From assembly GCA_016873255.1 (NCBI GenBank), contig VGXR01000011.1, positions 1 to 61,092 of the forward strand: a DNA stretch of 61,092 nucleotides, read 5' to 3'. This document shows, piece after piece, positions 18,350 to 51,815 of the stretch. Within the stretch, counting starts at the first letter, position 1; each line of letters starts with the position of its first letter. The notes under the pieces were generated by a model. It worked only from the letters and a program-made list of their open reading frames with translations. It was not told the DNA's origin and did no database searches. Origin of the DNA: Planctomycetota bacterium (GTDB lineage: Bacteria > Planctomycetota > Phycisphaerae > Phycisphaerales > SM1A02). The position numbers were made by a program, and so were the translations under genes.

Positions 18350-18406
18350 CGGATTGCACGGTGCGTCCCCGTGACGCGGCCGCAACTTCGGCATGCCGTT
18401 CGCGCG

Positions 18407-18412
18407 TATGTT
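18407..18412 (+). promoter_or_regulatory. TATGTT -10 box for ispE (leaderless pattern)
   Basis: TATGTT lies six bases before the GTG at 18419 and decides that start over the GTG at 18371. Confidence 0.5.
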
Positions 18413-18418
18413 CCGCGC

Positions 18419-19312
18419 GTGACCGAGCCTCGTGAGATCGTCGTTCGTGCCCCGGCCAAGCTGAACCTTGCGCTGAGCGTCGGCCCTCCTGGCGCCGACC
18501 GCATGCATCCGATCGCAAGCTGGATGGTGACGCTGGATTTCGGCGACGATCTGCACCTGCGAATGCTCGACCCGGGGCGCGACTCGCTGTACGCGGTCCT
18601 CTGGGCGAAGGACGCGCCGCGCGCCACCACGGTGGACTGGCCCATCCAGAAGGACCTGGCGGTGCGCGCGCACCTGGCGCTGCAGCAGCACGTCGGGCGC
18701 CCGCTTCCCGTGCGCATGAAGCTCGAGAAGCGCGTGCCGGTGGGCGGAGGGCTCGGGGGCGGATCGAGCAATGCCGCCGCGATGCTCCGCGGGCTGCGCG
18801 AGCTGTTCGGGCTGGCCGTGAGCGACGACGAGCTGTGCGAGATCGCGCGGGGGCTGGGAAGCGACGTGCCGTTCCTCGTGCGCGGCGGCAGCGCCGTCGT
18901 GGAGGGGCTCGGCGAGCGGATCGAGCGCCTCGGCGCGGTGCCCGACGTGCATGCGGTGCTCGCGTTCCCCGCCGCGGCGTGCCCGACCGGGCCCGTGTAC
19001 GGCAAGTTCGACCTGATGCGGCCCGATGCGTCGCTGCAGCTGGCGCGCGTGCGCTCGATGGCCAGCGGCGCCGCGGTGGCGCATGATGCACCGTTCAACG
19101 ACCTCGCGGAGCCCGCGATCGCGGTGGTGCCGGTGCTCGCGGACGAGCTCGCGCAGCTCAAGGCCATCACCGGGCGCACGGCCCACGTGAGCGGCAGCGG
19201 CAGCACGATCTTCGCGCTCTGCGACGGTCGCCTGGAGGCGGACCTGCTCGCCGAGCAGGTCCGCGCCCGGGCCGGGCTGCCGGCGGTGGCCGCGAGCGCG
19301 AGCGGCGGGTGA
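18419..19312 (+). CDS. ispE: 4-diphosphocytidyl-2-C-methyl-D-erythritol kinase
   Basis: GHMP-family kinase that phosphorylates CDP-methylerythritol in the MEP isoprenoid pathway. The 297-residue product shows the N-terminal substrate motif VVRAPAKLNLALSV, the phosphate-binding loop PVGGGLGGGSSNAAAML, GLGSDVPFLVRGG, and the C-terminal HVSGSGSTIFAL. Length is normal for the family. The GTG start at 18419 gives the usual distance to the PAKLNL motif. Another pathway gene, ispF, lies at 55206-55709 on the other strand, so the pathway is dispersed. pepF follows after about 96 bases that carry its own promoter-like box and ribosome site. Confidence 0.95.
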   Translation: MTEPREIVVRAPAKLNLALSVGPPGADRMHPIASWMVTLDFGDDLHLRMLDPGRDSLYAVLWAKDAPRATTVDWPIQKDLAVRAHLALQQHVGRPLPVRMKLEKRVPVGGGLGGGSSNAAAMLRGLRELFGLAVSDDELCEIARGLGSDVPFLVRGGSAVVEGLGERIERLGAVPDVHAVLAFPAAACPTGPVYGKFDLMRPDASLQLARVRSMASGAAVAHDAPFNDLAEPAIAVVPVLADELAQLKAITGRTAHVSGSGSTIFALCDGRLEADLLAEQVRARAGLPAVAASASGG

Positions 19313-19408
19313 GCCGGGCCGCCGGTTTCCGGCCACTCGACGGCCCGCGGGCGCGGCGGGGCGCTCGGCCCGGCGGGCTACCATGGGCGATTCCCCCCGG
19401 AGCCACCC

Positions 19409-21133
19409 ATGAGCACCCCGACCGCCGCGCCCGCGCATGCGCCCGCATCGACCTTCGTGCCCGCCTCCATCGATGGGTCCAAGTGGTCGGCGCTGGAGCC
19501 GTACTACTTGCAGCTGATCGGCCGCACCCTCCATGACGCGGCCGCGCTCGAGCGCCTGCTCCTCGACCGGAGCGAGCTCGATGCCTCCGCGGAGGAGGCC
19601 GCCGCCGACCTCTACATCAACATGACCCGGCACACGGACGACGAGCTCGTGCGCAGGCGCTACCTCGACTTCGTGGAGCAGGTGGAGCCCGAGCTGAAGA
19701 AGGCCGCGTTCGCGCTCGACCGCAAGGTCGTCGAGTGCCCGTTCGCGCAGCAGCTCGACCAGGCGCGCTACGGGGTGCTGCTGCGCGGGCTGCGGCGGTC
19801 GGTGGAGATCTTCCGCGAGCAGAACATCCCGCTCGAGACCGAGATCACCAAGCTCGACCAGAAGTACAGCGAGATCAACGGCGCCATGACCGTCACCTTC
19901 GACGGCGAGGAGCGCACGCTCCCGCAGATGGCGAAGTACCTCGAGGAGACCGACCGCGCGCGGCGGCAGGGCAGCTGGGAGGCCGTGGCATCGCGCCGGC
20001 TGCAGGACGCCGACCGGATCAACGACCTGTTCGAGGAGATGCTGAGGCTGCGCCACCAGGTGGCGCTGAATGCGGGGTTCCCCAACTACCGCGACTTCCA
20101 GCACGCGCGCATGCAGCGCTTCGACTACACGCCCGCCGACTGCGAGCGCTTCCACGAAGGCGCCGAGAAGGTGTGCGTGCCGCTGCTGCGGAAGCTGAAC
20201 CGCGAGCGCGCGCAGGCCCTCGGCCTTGCGCGGCTGCGCCCGTGGGACCTGAAGGTGGACCTGAGGGGGCGCGGGCCCCTGCAGCCGTTCGAGGGCGGGC
20301 AGCAGCTGGTGGACCGCTCGAGCGCCATCTTCCACCGCATGGACGCCGAGCTCGGCGGCATGTTCGACAGCATGCGCACGGGCGACTGCCTCGACCTCGA
20401 GAGCCGCAAGGGCAAGGCGCCCGGCGGCTACCAGTACCAGCGGCAGCGCAGCCGCCGGCCGTTCATCTTCATGAATGCCGCCGGCCTGCACCGCGACGTG
20501 ATCACCATGGTGCACGAGGCCGGCCATGCGTTCCACAGCCTGCTGTGCGCGCACGACCCGCTGGTGGCGTACCGCGGCAGCCCGATGGAGTTCGCGGAGG
20601 TGGCGTCCATGAGCATGGAGCTGCTGACGTTCCCGCACCTCGGCGAGTTCTATTCCGCGGAGGACGCCGACCGCGCGCGCCGCGACCACCTGGAGTCGCT
20701 CAGCACCATGCTGCCGTGGATCGCCACGATCGACGCGTTCCAGCACTGGATCTACCTGAATCCCACGCACACGCGGAAGGACCGCGAGCAGTACTGGGTG
20801 CACCTGAACGACCGCTTCGGCGCCGACGTCGACTGGAGCGGCCACGAGGACGCGCTGCGCTCCATGTGGCACCGCCAGCTGCACGTGTTCGGGCTCCCCT
20901 TCTACTACATCGAGTACGGCATCGCGCAGCTCGGTGCGCTGCAGGTGTGGGTGCAGGCAAAGAAGGACCCGGCCGCGGCGCTCGGCAACTACAAGAAGGG
21001 CCTCTCGCTCGGCGCCAGCCAGCCGCTGCCGAAGCTCTTCGAGGCGAGCGGGCTGCGGTTCGCGTTCGGTCCCGAGACCATGGGTGAGTTGATGGACGAC
21101 GTCGGCCGCACGCTCGAGCGGCTGCCGGCGTGA
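19409..21133 (+). CDS. pepF: Oligoendopeptidase F-type M3 metallopeptidase
   Basis: A 574-residue zinc oligopeptidase that trims short peptides in the cytoplasm. The zinc motif HEAGH is at residues 369-373, and the third ligand is a glutamate in EFAEVASMSME (394-397). Upstream are the family's mostly helical N-terminal domain (YLQLIGR, then a helical bundle) and NYRDFQHARMQRFDY. Downstream are FYYIEYGIAQLGALQVW and the YKKGLSLG segment that contacts substrate. No signal peptide. The ribosome site GGAG sits six bases before the ATG, with a TACCAT box at about 19380-19385 that would give a leader of about 20 bases. Confidence 0.92.
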   Translation: MSTPTAAPAHAPASTFVPASIDGSKWSALEPYYLQLIGRTLHDAAALERLLLDRSELDASAEEAAADLYINMTRHTDDELVRRRYLDFVEQVEPELKKAAFALDRKVVECPFAQQLDQARYGVLLRGLRRSVEIFREQNIPLETEITKLDQKYSEINGAMTVTFDGEERTLPQMAKYLEETDRARRQGSWEAVASRRLQDADRINDLFEEMLRLRHQVALNAGFPNYRDFQHARMQRFDYTPADCERFHEGAEKVCVPLLRKLNRERAQALGLARLRPWDLKVDLRGRGPLQPFEGGQQLVDRSSAIFHRMDAELGGMFDSMRTGDCLDLESRKGKAPGGYQYQRQRSRRPFIFMNAAGLHRDVITMVHEAGHAFHSLLCAHDPLVAYRGSPMEFAEVASMSMELLTFPHLGEFYSAEDADRARRDHLESLSTMLPWIATIDAFQHWIYLNPTHTRKDREQYWVHLNDRFGADVDWSGHEDALRSMWHRQLHVFGLPFYYIEYGIAQLGALQVWVQAKKDPAAALGNYKKGLSLGASQPLPKLFEASGLRFAFGPETMGELMDDVGRTLERLPA

Positions 21134-21154
21134 AAATGAGCGATTTCCAGCAGC

Positions 21155-21158
21155 GGAG
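21155..21158 (+). promoter_or_regulatory. Shine-Dalgarno GGAG deciding between two starts
   Basis: GGAG is three bases before the ATG at 21162 and nine before the ATG at 21168. The second spacing is normal, so translation probably begins at 21168 (MKNVLVLGAG). Confidence 0.55.
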
Positions 21159-21167
21159 CGAATGAAC

Positions 21168-22244
21168 ATGAAGAACGTCCTCGTCCTCGGTGCCGGCAAG
21201 ATCGGCCGAATGGTCGCAAGCCTCCTGCAGGGGTGCGGCGACTACCAGGTGCTGGTGATGGACTCGCACGACGGCTCGCTGCGCGAGACGCTGGCCCTCG
21301 CGCCCGGCGCCAAGGGCACCGGCGGCCGCTTCGACGACCAGGCCGCCGTGGACCGCGCGCTCGACGGCCAGTGGGCCGTGGTGAGCTGCGCGCCGTTCTT
21401 CTGCAACCCGATGGTCGCGGAGCGCGCCAAGGCGAAGGGCGTGCACTACCTCGACCTCACCGAGGACGTGGCGGTCACCAAGAAGGTCATGGAGCTGGCG
21501 AAGGGCGCGAGGACGGCGTTCATCCCGCAGTGCGGGCTGGCGCCCGGGTTCATCACCATCGCTGCAAACCACGTGATCCGAGGCATGGGCGACATGCACG
21601 AGGTGAAGATGCGCGTGGGCGCGCTCCCCGAGTTCCCTTCGAACGCGCTGAAGTACAACCTGACGTGGTCGACCGACGGCCTGATCAACGAGTACATCCA
21701 GCCCTGCGAGGCGGTGATCGACGGCAAGCTCGTCGTGGTGCCCGCGCTCGAGGGGCTCGAGCACATGATGATCGACGGCATCGAGTTCGAGGCGTTCAAC
21801 ACCTCGGGCGGCCTGGGGACCTTTGCGCTGACGCTCGAGGGCAAGGTGAAGCACCTCTCGTACAAGACGATGCGCTACCCGGGGCACAACGCGATCCTCA
21901 AGCTCCTGCTCTGGGACCTCGGCTTCCGCGAGCACCGCGAGGAGCTGAAGGCCGCCTTCGAGCGCGCGCTGCCGACCACGAAGCAGGACATCGTCGCGAT
22001 CTTCGTGAGCGCCGCGGGGCAGGTGGACGGCCGCTACATGGAGCGCACGTATGCCAAGATCGTGCGCCACAAGGAGATCGGCGGCCATCACTGGACGGCC
22101 ATTCAGATCACCACGGCCTGCGGCGTGACCGCCGTGCTCGACCTCCTGCGCGAGGGCAAGCTCGCGCAGTCGGGCTTCGTGCGCAACGAGGACGTGGACT
22201 TCGGCGCGTTCCTCGCGAACCGCTTCGGCCGCCACTACGCCTGA
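21168..22244 (+). CDS. Saccharopine/lysine dehydrogenase-family oxidoreductase
   Basis: A 358-residue NAD(P)-dependent enzyme. The N-terminal Rossmann fold opens directly with VLVLGAGKIGRMVASLL. Then come CAPFFCNPMVAERAKAKGVHYLDLTED, QCGLAPGFITIAAN and a C-terminal catalytic domain, the arrangement of saccharopine dehydrogenase-like proteins and of bacterial L-lysine 6-dehydrogenase. Which of lysine, saccharopine or a carboxynorspermidine-type substrate is used cannot be told. The ribosome site favours the start at 21168; a start at 21162 would add two residues. A MITE-like element begins three bases after its stop. Confidence 0.85.
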   Translation: MKNVLVLGAGKIGRMVASLLQGCGDYQVLVMDSHDGSLRETLALAPGAKGTGGRFDDQAAVDRALDGQWAVVSCAPFFCNPMVAERAKAKGVHYLDLTEDVAVTKKVMELAKGARTAFIPQCGLAPGFITIAANHVIRGMGDMHEVKMRVGALPEFPSNALKYNLTWSTDGLINEYIQPCEAVIDGKLVVVPALEGLEHMMIDGIEFEAFNTSGGLGTFALTLEGKVKHLSYKTMRYPGHNAILKLLLWDLGFREHREELKAAFERALPTTKQDIVAIFVSAAGQVDGRYMERTYAKIVRHKEIGGHHWTAIQITTACGVTAVLDLLREGKLAQSGFVRNEDVDFGAFLANRFGRHYA

Positions 22245-22246
22245 TT

Positions 22247-22523
22247 CCGCTCGTGGTTCGTTTGGCACCAGTTGTTCCCTCCAGAGAAGTCGCCGTTGGG
22301 GGCTTTGAAGTCGGGCGGTTGACCGGTCGCGGTGGTTGCGGCGGTGGCCGCGCCCCCCGGCCGCGCGCTCCTCGCCGCTTGCCCCGCCCGGAGCGTGCAA
22401 CTTGTCCGAGCGACCGAGGCCACCGCCGGTCGCCGAGGCGTCCAAGCCCGTCAACCCGCGCGACCGACGCGACAACCTGATTTCTCCGGAGAAGACAATT
22501 GGTGCCAAACTGACCAGGAACGG
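22247..22523. mobile_element. MITE-like element with 45-bp terminal inverted repeats
   Basis: The 45-base left arm (22247-22291) and the reverse complement of the right arm (22479-22523) align without gaps at about 35 of 45 positions; the best core is GTTTGGCACCA. The roughly 185 bases between are GC-rich, contain no supported gene and show weaker symmetry further in. Frames reading outward from both arms encode a similar peptide (DFSGGNNWCQTNHER on the left, DFSGEDNWCQTDQER on the right). The element fills the whole gap between the dehydrogenase and nadA and ends eight bases before the nadA -10 box. No clear target duplication is visible. Confidence 0.6.
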
Positions 22524-22530
22524 ATTTGCC

Positions 22531-22536
22531 TAGGAT
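22531..22536 (+). promoter_or_regulatory. TAGGAT -10 box for nadA (leaderless pattern)
   Basis: TAGGAT is six bases before the nadA ATG; no ribosome site lies between. Its -35 region would fall inside the right arm of the MITE-like element. Confidence 0.5.
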
Positions 22537-22542
22537 TGCGAG

Positions 22543-23778
22543 ATGCTCTGGCAACCGGCGCTGCCTGAACGCTACGTGCGGATGACCGACGCGGAACTCG
22601 CGGAAGGCATCCGTGCGCGCAAGGCCGAGCTGGGGAAGCGCCTGCTGGTGCTGGGCCATCATTACCAGCAGGACGACGTGGTGCAGCATGCCGACCTCAC
22701 CGGTGACAGCCTCAAGCTGAGCCAGATGGCCGCCGAGGAGGCCGAGCGGCGCGGCAGCGAGTGGATCGTGTTCTGCGGCGTCCACTTCATGGCCGAGACC
22801 GCGGACATCCTCACCTCGGATCGCGTGAAGGTGGTGCTGCCGGATCTCTCCGCGGGCTGCTCGATGGCCGACATGGCGCAGTACGACGAGGCCGTGGAGG
22901 CCTGGGACGCGATCGCGCGCGCGACCGCCGGCACGCGCACGCGCGTGGTGCCGATCACCTACGTCAACTCGAGCGCCGCCATCAAGGCGTTCGTGGGCTC
23001 GAAGGGCGGCGCCTGCTGCACCAGTTCCAACGCGGCGCAGGTCTTCGACTGGGCGCTCAAGGGCGGCGATGCGCCGCCTGCGTCGGGCGAGGAGGTCAAG
23101 ATCCTCTTCCTCCCCGACCAGCACCTCGGCCGCAACACCGCCAAGCGCAAGGGGTTCGTGACGGAGTTCGACGCCTCCCCGCGCCGCCCCGCGCAGACGG
23201 TGCTCTGGAACCCTCGCCGCGAGCAGGGCGGCCTGGGCGATGCCGAGATCCGCGCCGCGCGCGTCCTGCTGTGGGCCGGCCACTGCAGCGTCCACAAGAT
23301 GTTCCGGCCCGAGCACATCGACGCCGTGCGCGCGCAGCACGCGGCCGACGGCGGGATCACCGTCATCGTGCACCCGGAGTGCTCGCAGGACGTGGTCGAC
23401 GCCGCGGACCTGAGCGGCTCCACGGAGCACATCATCCGCACCATCGAGGGCGCCGTGCCGGGCACGCGCTGGGCGATCGGCACGGAGATCCACCTCGTGA
23501 ACCGCCTCGCGAAGGCGGCTGCCGCACGCGGCGTGTTCGTGCGCATCCTCTCCGACTGCCAGTGCCTGTGCACCACGATGTACCGCATCGATCCGCAGCA
23601 CCTCCTGTGGGCGCTCGACGGCATCGCCGAGGGCCGCGAGCCGAACGTGGTGCGCGTCCACCCGGATGCCAAGGCGCAGGCGCGCCTTGCGCTCGAACGC
23701 ATGCTGCGCAACACCGCACCCGCAGGGCAGGGTGCGGTGCCCTCCGCAGCCACCGCGGCGCCTGCAATCGTAGACTGA
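22543..23778 (+). CDS. nadA: Quinolinate synthase
   Basis: Iron-sulfur enzyme of NAD biosynthesis that condenses iminoaspartate with dihydroxyacetone phosphate. The 411-residue product has LVLGHHYQQDDV near residue 40, GDSLKLSQ, the SAGCSMAD cysteine near residue 107, TYVNSSAAIKAF, LPDQHLGRNTA, WAGHCSVHKMF with a second cysteine, VHPECSQDV, and DCQCLCTTMYRI near the C-terminus, giving the three [4Fe-4S] ligands and more. It is longer than the E. coli form (about 347) and belongs to the long NadA type. nadB and nadC are not in the window. The AsmA-like gene follows after four bases but has its own -10-like box. Confidence 0.96.
   Translation: MLWQPALPERYVRMTDAELAEGIRARKAELGKRLLVLGHHYQQDDVVQHADLTGDSLKLSQMAAEEAERRGSEWIVFCGVHFMAETADILTSDRVKVVLPDLSAGCSMADMAQYDEAVEAWDAIARATAGTRTRVVPITYVNSSAAIKAFVGSKGGACCTSSNAAQVFDWALKGGDAPPASGEEVKILFLPDQHLGRNTAKRKGFVTEFDASPRRPAQTVLWNPRREQGGLGDAEIRAARVLLWAGHCSVHKMFRPEHIDAVRAQHAADGGITVIVHPECSQDVVDAADLSGSTEHIIRTIEGAVPGTRWAIGTEIHLVNRLAKAAAARGVFVRILSDCQCLCTTMYRIDPQHLLWALDGIAEGREPNVVRVHPDAKAQARLALERMLRNTAPAGQGAVPSAATAAPAIVD
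23771..23776 (+). promoter_or_regulatory. TAGACT -10 box (leaderless pattern)
   Basis: TAGACT is six bases before the GTG at 23783 and overlaps the nadA stop region. Confidence 0.4.
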
Positions 23779-39621: not shown

Positions 39622-40707
39622 ATGAAGCACTGCGTCATCGCCTCCACGGCCCTCCTCACCGTCTCGCCCGCCCTCGCGCAGCAAGTCGTCGTCGATGGCA
39701 CCGCCGAGGCCGCCTACGGCAATGCGATCTTCGAGCAGGCCATCGGCACGGGCTTCGGCAACGCGACCGACGGCTTCCGCGGCGGCCCGTGCAACGGCAG
39801 CGAGCTCGACGGTGCCTTCGGCATCATCGACACCGCCGGCGGCTACCTCTACGTCGTGCTCGCGGGCAACCTCGAGACCAACTTCAACAAGCTCGACGTG
39901 TTCGTTGACTGCGCCCCGGGCGGCCAGAACGCGGTCCGCTCGGACAACCCCGATGTCGACTTCAACGGCCTGAACCGCATGGGCGCCGACACGGTGAACA
40001 ACTTGCCCGGCCTGAAGTTCGATGCCGGGTTCGAGGCCGACGGCTACCTGACTTGCACCATCGGCGGCACGCCCAGCACGCTGTACGCGAGCGTCGCGCA
40101 GATGCTGTCGGCGGGCGGCGGCACCGGTGGATACCTCGGGAGCAGCGTGGCCGACCCCACGACGGGCGCCACGCTCATCGATAACCCGGCCCTCGGCGTG
40201 CAGGTGTCCATGGACAACTCGAACGTCGGCGGCGTGGACGGCTCAAACGGCGGCGCCTCGTCCGGTGCCGGCGTCCGCACCGGCATCGAGATGCGCATTC
40301 CGCTGGCTCTCCTGGGCTACACCGGCGGCCCGATCAAGGTCTGCGCCTTCATCAACGGCAACGGACACGACTACGCGTCCAACCAGTTCCTGGGCGGCCT
40401 GCCCCTGGGTTCGCAGAACCTCGGCGGCGACGGTGCCGGCGGCTATTTCGGCGGCTTCCCCGCGGCACTGCGCTTCGACCTCGGGCAGATCCCCGGAGAC
40501 CAGTTCTTCACGATCGGCGGCCAGGCCCCGAATCCGTGCCCGACCGACCTCGATGGCGACCAGCAGACGGGCGGCGCCGACCTCGGCATCCTGCTCGGCG
40601 CTTGGGGCGCGTGCGGCGCGACCTGCGCCACCGACCTTGATGGCGACGGTTTCACGGGCGGCTCGGACCTGGGCACCCTGCTCGGCGCCTGGGGCCTGTG
40701 CCCCTGA
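39622..40707 (+). CDS. Secreted protein with dockerin-like tail
   Basis: A 361-residue exported protein. The signal peptide ends at PALAQ (residue 20) and is followed by a single beta-rich domain to about residue 305, containing DGTAEAAYGN, ETNFNKLDVFVDC and IEMRIPLALLGY. These look like the carbohydrate-binding beta-sandwich fold of CBM9-like modules; this is a resemblance, not a firm match. Two degenerate dockerin-like repeats end the protein (DLDGDQQTGGADLGILLG and DLDGDGFTGGSDLGTLLG). A ribosome site AGGAG (39607-39611) is ten bases before the ATG. A terminator hairpin follows. Confidence 0.82.
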   Translation: MKHCVIASTALLTVSPALAQQVVVDGTAEAAYGNAIFEQAIGTGFGNATDGFRGGPCNGSELDGAFGIIDTAGGYLYVVLAGNLETNFNKLDVFVDCAPGGQNAVRSDNPDVDFNGLNRMGADTVNNLPGLKFDAGFEADGYLTCTIGGTPSTLYASVAQMLSAGGGTGGYLGSSVADPTTGATLIDNPALGVQVSMDNSNVGGVDGSNGGASSGAGVRTGIEMRIPLALLGYTGGPIKVCAFINGNGHDYASNQFLGGLPLGSQNLGGDGAGGYFGGFPAALRFDLGQIPGDQFFTIGGQAPNPCPTDLDGDQQTGGADLGILLGAWGACGATCATDLDGDGFTGGSDLGTLLGAWGLCP

Positions 40708-40737
40708 CCATCAGGGCCTGATTGGATGAAACACCGC

Positions 40738-40771
40738 GGGCCCGGCCCTCGTGCCGGGCCCGTTTCGTTTT
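40738..40771 (+). terminator. Rho-independent terminator
   Basis: Stem GGGCCCGGC / GCCGGGCCC (40738-40761) followed by GTTTCGTTTT; it ends the secreted-protein gene and separates it from the convergent ABC transporter operon. Confidence 0.8.
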
Positions 40772-40816
40772 CGGCATGTACGCAGTCGCCGCGGCGCGCG
40801 CCGCATGCGCGCAGGG

Positions 40817-41971
<1,155 letters not shown>

Positions 41972-49256: not shown

Positions 49257-51383
<2,127 letters not shown>

Positions 51384-51423
51384 CCGCCTTGGGTCGCGAC
51401 CCCGCCGTCTTCAACGAAGAATC

Positions 51424-51451
51424 GCGGCCGGCACCTGAGGGTGCCGGCCGC
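51424..51451. terminator. Bidirectional terminator hairpin
   Basis: A 12-bp perfect stem GCGGCCGGCACC / GGTGCCGGCCGC around TGAG, between glgP and the convergent PEP-CTERM fragment. Confidence 0.8.
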
Positions 51452-51486
51452 GTTCATTGTCACGGGCAACGCCCGGAGGTGAGGGC

Positions 51487-51815
51487 TTACTTGCGACGAC
51501 GGCCGCCGACGAGGCCGGCGACGCCGAGCAAGGCCACCGCACCCGGCGCGGGCGTCACGGTGTAGGCCAGGAACGGCCCGGCCGTGGAGGCCTCGCCCCA
51601 GCCGTTCGTGGCGGGGGTGCTGCGGCTCAGGTGGTCGACGCCCGGGTCCTTGCCGCCGCCGGAGGTCGCGATGTCGAAGCAGAAGCCGCTGCCCGCCGAG
51701 GGCCCCATGGCCGCCAGCGAGATCTGCCAGGTGACGGTGTTGCCGCTCACCGAGTTGGTGAGGTAGCTCTCCGAGCCCCAGTTCTGCGCCGAGCCCGTCA
51801 ATGACGGGATGTCGA
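51487..51815 (-). pseudogene. 3' remnant of a PEP-CTERM-tailed secreted protein
   Basis: About 109 codons in one frame read as a genuine protein end. First comes a beta-rich piece (FDIPSLTG, then TVTWQISLAAMGPSAGSG and CFDIATSGG), then an exposed linker. The end is TPAPGAVALLGVAGLVGGRRRK, a Pro-Gly-hydrophobic-basic PEP-CTERM-like sorting tail. No start codon or ribosome site fits, and it begins within a few bases of the stop of the upstream amylase. The likeliest reading is the old 3' end of a gene whose front is lost. A translational coupling from the amylase stop cannot be excluded. Confidence 0.65.

Follow-up and report, generated by a model that had tools for sequence, protein, structure and literature searches.

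A MITE-like inverted-repeat element ahead of nadA in a planctomycete genome and the hairpin core nested within it

The locus studied here raises the question of what fills the gap ahead of nadA (quinolinate synthase; 22543..23778, + strand) and how it came to lie there. The locus is part of a 61,092-nt stretch of planctomycete DNA (the window). A preliminary description had reported arms of roughly 78 percent identity filling this gap, and we found the inverted repeat as described, with two 46-nt arms (22246-22291 and 22479-22524) that are 78% complementary and separated by a 187-nt spacer. When its outer edges are placed by the start points of an arm profile, the element runs from 22243 to 22527 and occupies the space from the stop codon of a saccharopine dehydrogenase-like gene (SacDH; 21162..22244, + strand) to nadA: the first two bases of the left arm (22243..22291, + strand) are the GA of the SacDH stop TGA (22242-22244), and the right arm (22479..22527, − strand) lies 15 nt from the nadA ATG (22543). 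The single strand 22243-22527 is predicted to fold at −159.5 kcal/mol (z = −8.3), and none of 200 shuffled sequences folded as well. A search of the window with the Rfam 15 covariance models gave no match at gathering scores.

The same description had placed a nadA −10 box next to the element and suggested that the element supplies part of the nadA promoter. A scan of 22100-22650 for sigma-70 consensus sites, the only promoter type covered, returned none and leaves both proposals unsupported; the AGGA ending 7 nt 5' of the nadA ATG could equally be a ribosome-binding site. Transcription of nadA may now come either from SacDH or from inside the element. The similar DFSG..NWCQT peptides that had been noticed are indeed present in both outward arm frames, because the arms are inverted copies of one sequence. 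Since genes enter the arms in different frames, constraint on the arms at the protein level was not borne out, and descent of the arms from coding ends found no support.

A repeat family in the home genome

We searched the home genome (G000; 2.78 Mb in 152 contigs, 97.5% complete) with a 311-base query and obtained at least 107 matching pieces by BLAST (E ≤ 1e-3; best 40 of 159 candidates scored). The arm core GTTNGTTTGGCACCAATTG occurred at 67 sites with up to 3 mismatches, compared to none for the reversed pattern, and the additional arm copies that the preliminary description had proposed looking for are thus present in number. The 46-nt arm consensus is AAATCCGYTCCTGGTTMGTTTGGCACCAATTGNTTTCTCCRGAGAA. 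Three forms of copy were seen, namely back-to-back arm hairpins of about 98 nt, composites of 178-733 nt (733 nt being the longest copy measured) and solo arms; the window copy is a composite. An RNA model of the short form (R1) matched 19 places, each of them on both strands. Several arm copies lie at contig ends, as is expected because assemblies break at repeats.

Across 121 genomes of the taxonomic family, the arm core at up to 2 mismatches was found at 54 sites in G000 and at one or two sites in 9 of the 120 others. The reversed control also matched in 4 of the 121 genomes, and the sites outside G000 are therefore near chance level. By BLAST, G008 was the only one of the other 13 genomes of the genus to yield an arm match, at a single site (up to 40 best candidates scored per genome).

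The family thus shows several marks of a MITE: it is short, lacks a transposase gene, has terminal inverted repeats and is present in many copies. The window feature is likely, in our view, to be one copy of an inverted-repeat element that is MITE-like, non-autonomous and particular to the planctomycete lineage of G000. The preliminary description was right in substance to call it MITE-like, as the element is multicopy, has no gene of its own, ends in inverted repeats and has arm-free counterpart sites in relatives (see below); it is not the single-copy sequence conserved in relatives that had been named as the opposing case. Such a unit would have spread through an enzyme supplied in trans. 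A search for a parent transposase, also proposed earlier, gave no candidate: the Y1_Tnp profile, representing the sole mobilising enzyme type sought, had no match in G000.

Bacterial MITEs and small repeats of the ERIC, Correia and RUP type are about 100 to several hundred nt long, have inverted ends and are free of genes (cf. PMC2759123), and the family resembles them in all of these respects. It is also like them in being multicopy, intergenic and absent at the same site in relatives, and unlike them in having ends tied to stop codons and a second hairpin family inside. Set against these MITEs, no parent transposase accompanies it within the Y1_Tnp search and no target-site duplication stands out; none common to the copies is visible at arm starts or at sister-aligned junctions, where stop codons blur the edges.

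Gene ends, arm-free sites and a probable inversion

To judge the position of copies relative to genes we wrote a simple gene finder based on codon usage, whose starts and some of whose ends are approximate. The 35 copies classified, which leave out the contig-end stretches L023, L026, L028, L031, L039 and L042 and unfetched copies, lay between convergent genes in 23 cases, between tandem genes in 12 (7 of these being solo arms) and between divergent genes in none. As background, the 45 adjacent gene pairs of the window comprise 6 convergent, 34 tandem and 5 divergent pairs. The other copy-bearing loci, with copies included, gave 31 convergent, 91 tandem and 23 divergent pairs, an unfair background in that these loci were selected for holding copies. 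Two convergent junctions of the window (40707-40817 and 51383-51487) carry strong, ordinary-looking hairpins of −58 and −60 kcal/mol (RNA fold) and no arm.

Arm starts were compared with stop codons for 66 arms (67 profile matches, one being omitted for its late start). Twenty-nine arms, one of them weak at 10 bits, have their first base 2 nt within a stop codon (TAA 17, TGA 10, TAG 2), 6 begin 1 nt inside a stop codon and 6 begin 1-6 nt past one. Another 13 are entered in frame by a gene that ends at a stop belonging to the arm, 18 or 33 nt from where the arm starts, while 5 lie 18-67 nt from a stop and 7 have no gene in the same sense. Since TAA is rare among the stop codons of window genes (TGA 37, TAG 5, TAA 4), the arms themselves appear to have supplied many of the TAA stops found at them; a T from the gene followed by AA from the arm would make up such a stop. 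The stop codon of SacDH in the window is native, and the eight sister SacDH orthologues that reach the C-terminus stop at the same codon. At L038, L046 and other read-through loci the protein tail is element-encoded and of the KSVPG or KSAPGSFGTN type (by our own translation); at L046 the counterpart in G008 appears to have a longer native tail.

This distribution may reflect survival of only those insertions that cost little, which in a compact genome would be the ones at junctions where both genes end. Small hairpin elements would in this way settle at the ends of genes that face each other and partly rewrite these ends, at times exchanging the final residues of the encoded protein, and the unusual gap ahead of a core biosynthetic gene is accounted for and tied to a genome-wide process.

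The suggestion that relatives lack the insert was supported at ten convergent junctions, which have arm-free counterparts in sister species (a comparison between species, not strains), and at eight SacDH loci. For 12 further junctions we searched both gene ends in four sister genomes, and 10 of the 12 were comparable, with the gene ends neighbouring in the sister. Each of the 20 sister stretches could be aligned on either side of the element, and in 11 the alignment stopped no more than 5 nt short of both its edges. The unaligned gap in the sister measured 3-229 nt (the larger gaps include diverged gene ends). At E < 1 the arm profile found no arm in the 20 sister stretches, the 8 SacDH loci and 6 longer stretches, and the known G008 arm, serving as positive control, was recovered at 50.8 bits. 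SacDH itself was matched in 13 of the 14 genus genomes, G000 included, some of the matches being fragments or paralogues. One sister genome, G011, has an arm family of its own (GAAATTGGGTTCGGGATAACCC...), found near cores of the kind described below and at the same junction between SacDH and the gene facing it, here called X (L270 6446-7130, L083 1413-1938, L074, L079, L279). The G011 and G000 arms have no sequence likeness (p about 0.5), and the presence of an unrelated arm family at the SacDH/X junction means that gene-end hairpins recur at one place, a point against the MITE-like reading.

Gene order around nadA differs between G000 and its relatives. Four sister stretches (L266, L267, L268, L270) contain both nadA and ispE, and in all of them the two genes are divergent, with the M3 peptidase and SacDH genes beyond ispE; of the remaining two, L269 begins inside ispE, and L271 contains ispE but gave no match to nadA within the 4.4 kb past it. 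Gene X lies downstream of SacDH and faces it in 5 of the 6 sister stretches, with no match in L268. In G000 the block ispE - M3 peptidase - SacDH (18350..22542) is turned round relative to the sisters, so that SacDH and the element now stand ahead of nadA. We read this rearrangement as an inversion with the element at its right breakpoint, and the G000 order is presumably the derived one. The rearrangement replaced the upstream region of nadA seen in the four sisters by SacDH and the element. As SacDH and X face each other in most relatives seen, the window copy, now in a tandem setting, sits at a junction that is convergent in those relatives, and it may have been inserted there as a 3'-3' junction, where damage would be least. 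Recombination between inverted arms was considered as the route of the inversion and set aside, as no arm was seen by eye on the ispE side. We also observed that ispE in G000 now follows gene X by about 21 nt, if the GTG at 18371 is the ispE start.

Maintained hairpins or mobile repeats

Hairpins between gene ends could also be there for a function. The arm hairpins might be bidirectional terminators, or protectors of the 3' ends of convergent genes, that are kept by selection, with mobility being secondary. Their location between gene 3' ends, shared with intrinsic terminators, is in keeping with this, as is the strong folding of two short copies (z = −12.5 and −7.7), and REP elements, for which PMC3733652 gives a role in termination or mRNA stabilisation as a hypothesis, occupy the same kind of place. 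Furthermore, at one compared junction three sister stretches (L302, L303 and L304) hold palindromes of other sequence, which also fits a turnover of terminator-like hairpins. The pairing of the arms argues otherwise. Across 23 complete copies, arms paired with their own partner exactly as well as with arms of other copies (0.821 vs 0.821; permutation p 0.50), so that the outer arms look like decaying MITE ends and not like a maintained terminator. Short copies (n = 11) even paired worse with their own partner (0.756) than across copies (0.788), and double changes were kept in 3 of 29 pairs in 10 short copies. The partner-specific covariation of a maintained RNA hairpin was hence absent over the full set of pairs; in the 12 long copies own-partner pairing was slightly better (0.881 vs 0.868, p 0.027), and this counts against a mobile element. 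Two further points separate the family from intrinsic terminators, namely that a scan of 22100-22650 for the terminator consensus (GC-rich stem followed by a T run) gave no site at the window copy, and that solo arms make up the 7 of 12 tandem elements noted above. On balance we find it doubtful that selected terminators or end protectors explain the family, and a terminator role for young copies is possible.

A related question is whether the element belongs to the REPs or REPINs and was moved by a REP-associated tyrosine (Y1) transposase. Di Nocera et al. (2013; PMC3733652) describe REPs as palindromes of 20-40 bp that bear either a GTAG or a CGTC tag, the CGTC families having stems of 8-9 bp. 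In their account REPs adjoin convergent ORFs at the 3' ends, and REPs of the GTAG class frequently contribute a stop codon through their ends. The window family resembles the GTAG and CGTC REPs of that account in being palindromic and extragenic, in its convergent or unidirectional locations near 3' ends and in donating stop codons. Unlike REPs, it has arms of 46 nt in place of 20-40 nt, carries neither the GTAG nor the CGTC end tag and resides in a genome without a Y1_Tnp match. Within the genus, Y1_Tnp was found in 4 of 7 genomes with the inner core described below and in 5 of 7 without it, and a loose core pattern was not found in the fetched RAYT loci. The family works like a REP or a MITE, and the tag, size and RAYT that define REP membership are lacking; movement by a Y1 transposase is accordingly very unlikely in our judgement.

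The inner hairpin core

Beyond what had been described before, the interior of the element goes back to a second hairpin module, which is itself widely distributed. Composite copies enclose a 136-nt hairpin in which variable complementary stems surround a nearly invariant internal loop, and this core also occurs without the G000 arms, in sister species and in other phyla. The composite form may have arisen when a stretch bearing the core entered an arm hairpin, after which both forms would have spread. The window holds a deletion derivative of the core (22325..22444, + strand) that scores 44.9 bits with the core model R2, compared to 109-157 bits for full-length G000 copies, because most of the 5' half of the core is missing. 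The remnant retains the 3' strand TTGTCCGAGCGACCGAGGCCACC and the tail GCCGAGGCGTCCA, and an inner inverted repeat is still present (22339..22352 pairing with 22415..22428, both given on the + strand; 14 nt, 93% complementary).

Model R2 found the core in 7 of 14 genus genomes and, in the family sample, gave weak matches in 3 genomes of another genus, for a total of 6 of 121 genomes. The GTDB collection contained at least 119 stretches with the exact loop pattern AAGCGAGTT-N16-46-TGTCYGAGCGACTG, and the holders among the 80 matches listed included Eggerthellaceae, Pelistega suis, a Lachnospiraceae MAG, Woeseiaceae, another gammaproteobacterium, an Omnitrophica MAG and Planctomycetes. In a phylum sample of 392 Planctomycetota genomes the exact core was found in none, G000 included; G000 is missed because its apical loop exceeds the limit of the pattern, and the result therefore means both that the core is patchy and that the pattern overlooks long-loop forms. 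Viral contigs held no core. BLAST with one 51-nt core form returned one weak plasmid record, nothing in E. coli and two records of a single phage; we rejected the phage match, as that stretch does not fold as the core, and the Collinsella stretch from these searches proved to be a degenerate core within a long hairpin. Rfam searches of 14 core-bearing loci at E up to 5 gave no credible match to the core (the sole overlap with a core was MEG3_2 on L148, antisense, at 22.9 of 60 bits, and other matches fell elsewhere). Among the core strings sought in PMC full text only the 9-letter AAGCGAGUU appeared, in five papers of unrelated title. Judging from this text search, a literature search and Rfam, the core appears not to have been described previously.

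Across genomes both stems vary and yet remain mostly complementary, and the two strands of the internal loop hardly vary. We analysed the stems in the 96 of 123 matches that have a stricter loop and full flanks. Stem 1 takes 76 distinct sequences in these 96 matches, and its mean pairing is 10.76 out of 12 positions, compared to 6.71 when partners are shuffled (7.16 being the highest value in 200 shuffles). In 11 of the 76 no more than 8 positions pair when gaps are disallowed. The 63 well-paired distinct stems contain 92 G.T and 15 A.C mismatches, an excess that identifies the AAGCGAG strand as the folding strand; 38 of the G.T mismatches are at positions 5-6, many in related copies, and the remainder is 54 G.T vs 14 A.C.

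The near-invariant loop with 76 distinct, mostly complementary stems, together with a mismatch bias indicating that one strand folds, would suit a functional structured RNA gene or processing signal for which the arms are passengers. Several observations speak against this. The window copy has lost most of the 5' half of the core. Covariation in the genus is weak, with a double change in 1 of 27 pairs among 9 aligned copies and values as high in 198 of 500 shuffles. In single-stranded DNA, too, G.T is the most stable of the mismatches. In addition, among the 72 loci assigned to Eggerthellaceae (by title, or for L186-L223 by sequence likeness), the folding strand is antisense to the genes at 28 of 37 tandem junctions and in the same sense at 9, which means that the core does not merely form the 3' end of a transcript from the upstream gene. 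The cores of these 72 presumed Eggerthellaceae loci lie in 12 convergent and 37 tandem junctions and in no divergent one, with 5 at edges and 18 inside called ORFs, where the gene calls are doubtful (background pairs: 50 convergent, 332 tandem, 36 divergent). We regard a structured RNA gene or processing signal as unlikely.

What we tentatively propose, with slightly less than even confidence, is that the core is a cross-phylum element. It would act as a single RNA or DNA strand with a near-invariant two-sided loop (CANNAAGCGAGUU / UGUCYGAGCGACUG) and two freely varying, mostly complementary stems. It would multiply in scattered genomes of Actinomycetota, Pseudomonadota, Bacillota, Omnitrophota and Planctomycetota by means of machinery that reads the loop and is blind to the stems, would lodge in or build palindromes at gene ends, and at this locus would be nested in, and spread by, the species-specific inverted-repeat element. 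The core may be the larger prize of this locus, since near letter-for-letter conservation of the loop between phyla, alongside change in both stems, implies a specific recogniser or activity, which could be tested in cultured gut Eggerthellaceae.

The surroundings of the core were surveyed as well. ORFs around the 119 core loci include no obvious recurring mobile gene; the largest ORF cluster, present at 14 loci, is transporter-like by our own reading of unannotated sequence. In a search for outer arms around cores in other genomes, 27 of 29 loci had sufficient flank, and six (L074, L079, L080, L083, L088, L091) beat all 20 shuffles, clearly so only L083 and L091. Two core copies in the Lachnospiraceae MAG lie in long hairpins beside apparent gene ends, one of them with runs of A and T. 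Tandem repetition of the 3' basal part of the core was seen downstream of it in several genomes (L082, L094 and L071), with units of about 31 nt in L082 of G008. In one Eggerthellaceae MAG a raiA RNA (150.7 bits; L109 6348-6584) and a core are separated by about 3 kb, which is probably a coincidence. Finally, a long palindrome with a degenerate core was observed in Collinsella aerofaciens (NZ_OY725717.1; L323, about 1440-1600), between dut and a convergent glycosyltransferase gene.
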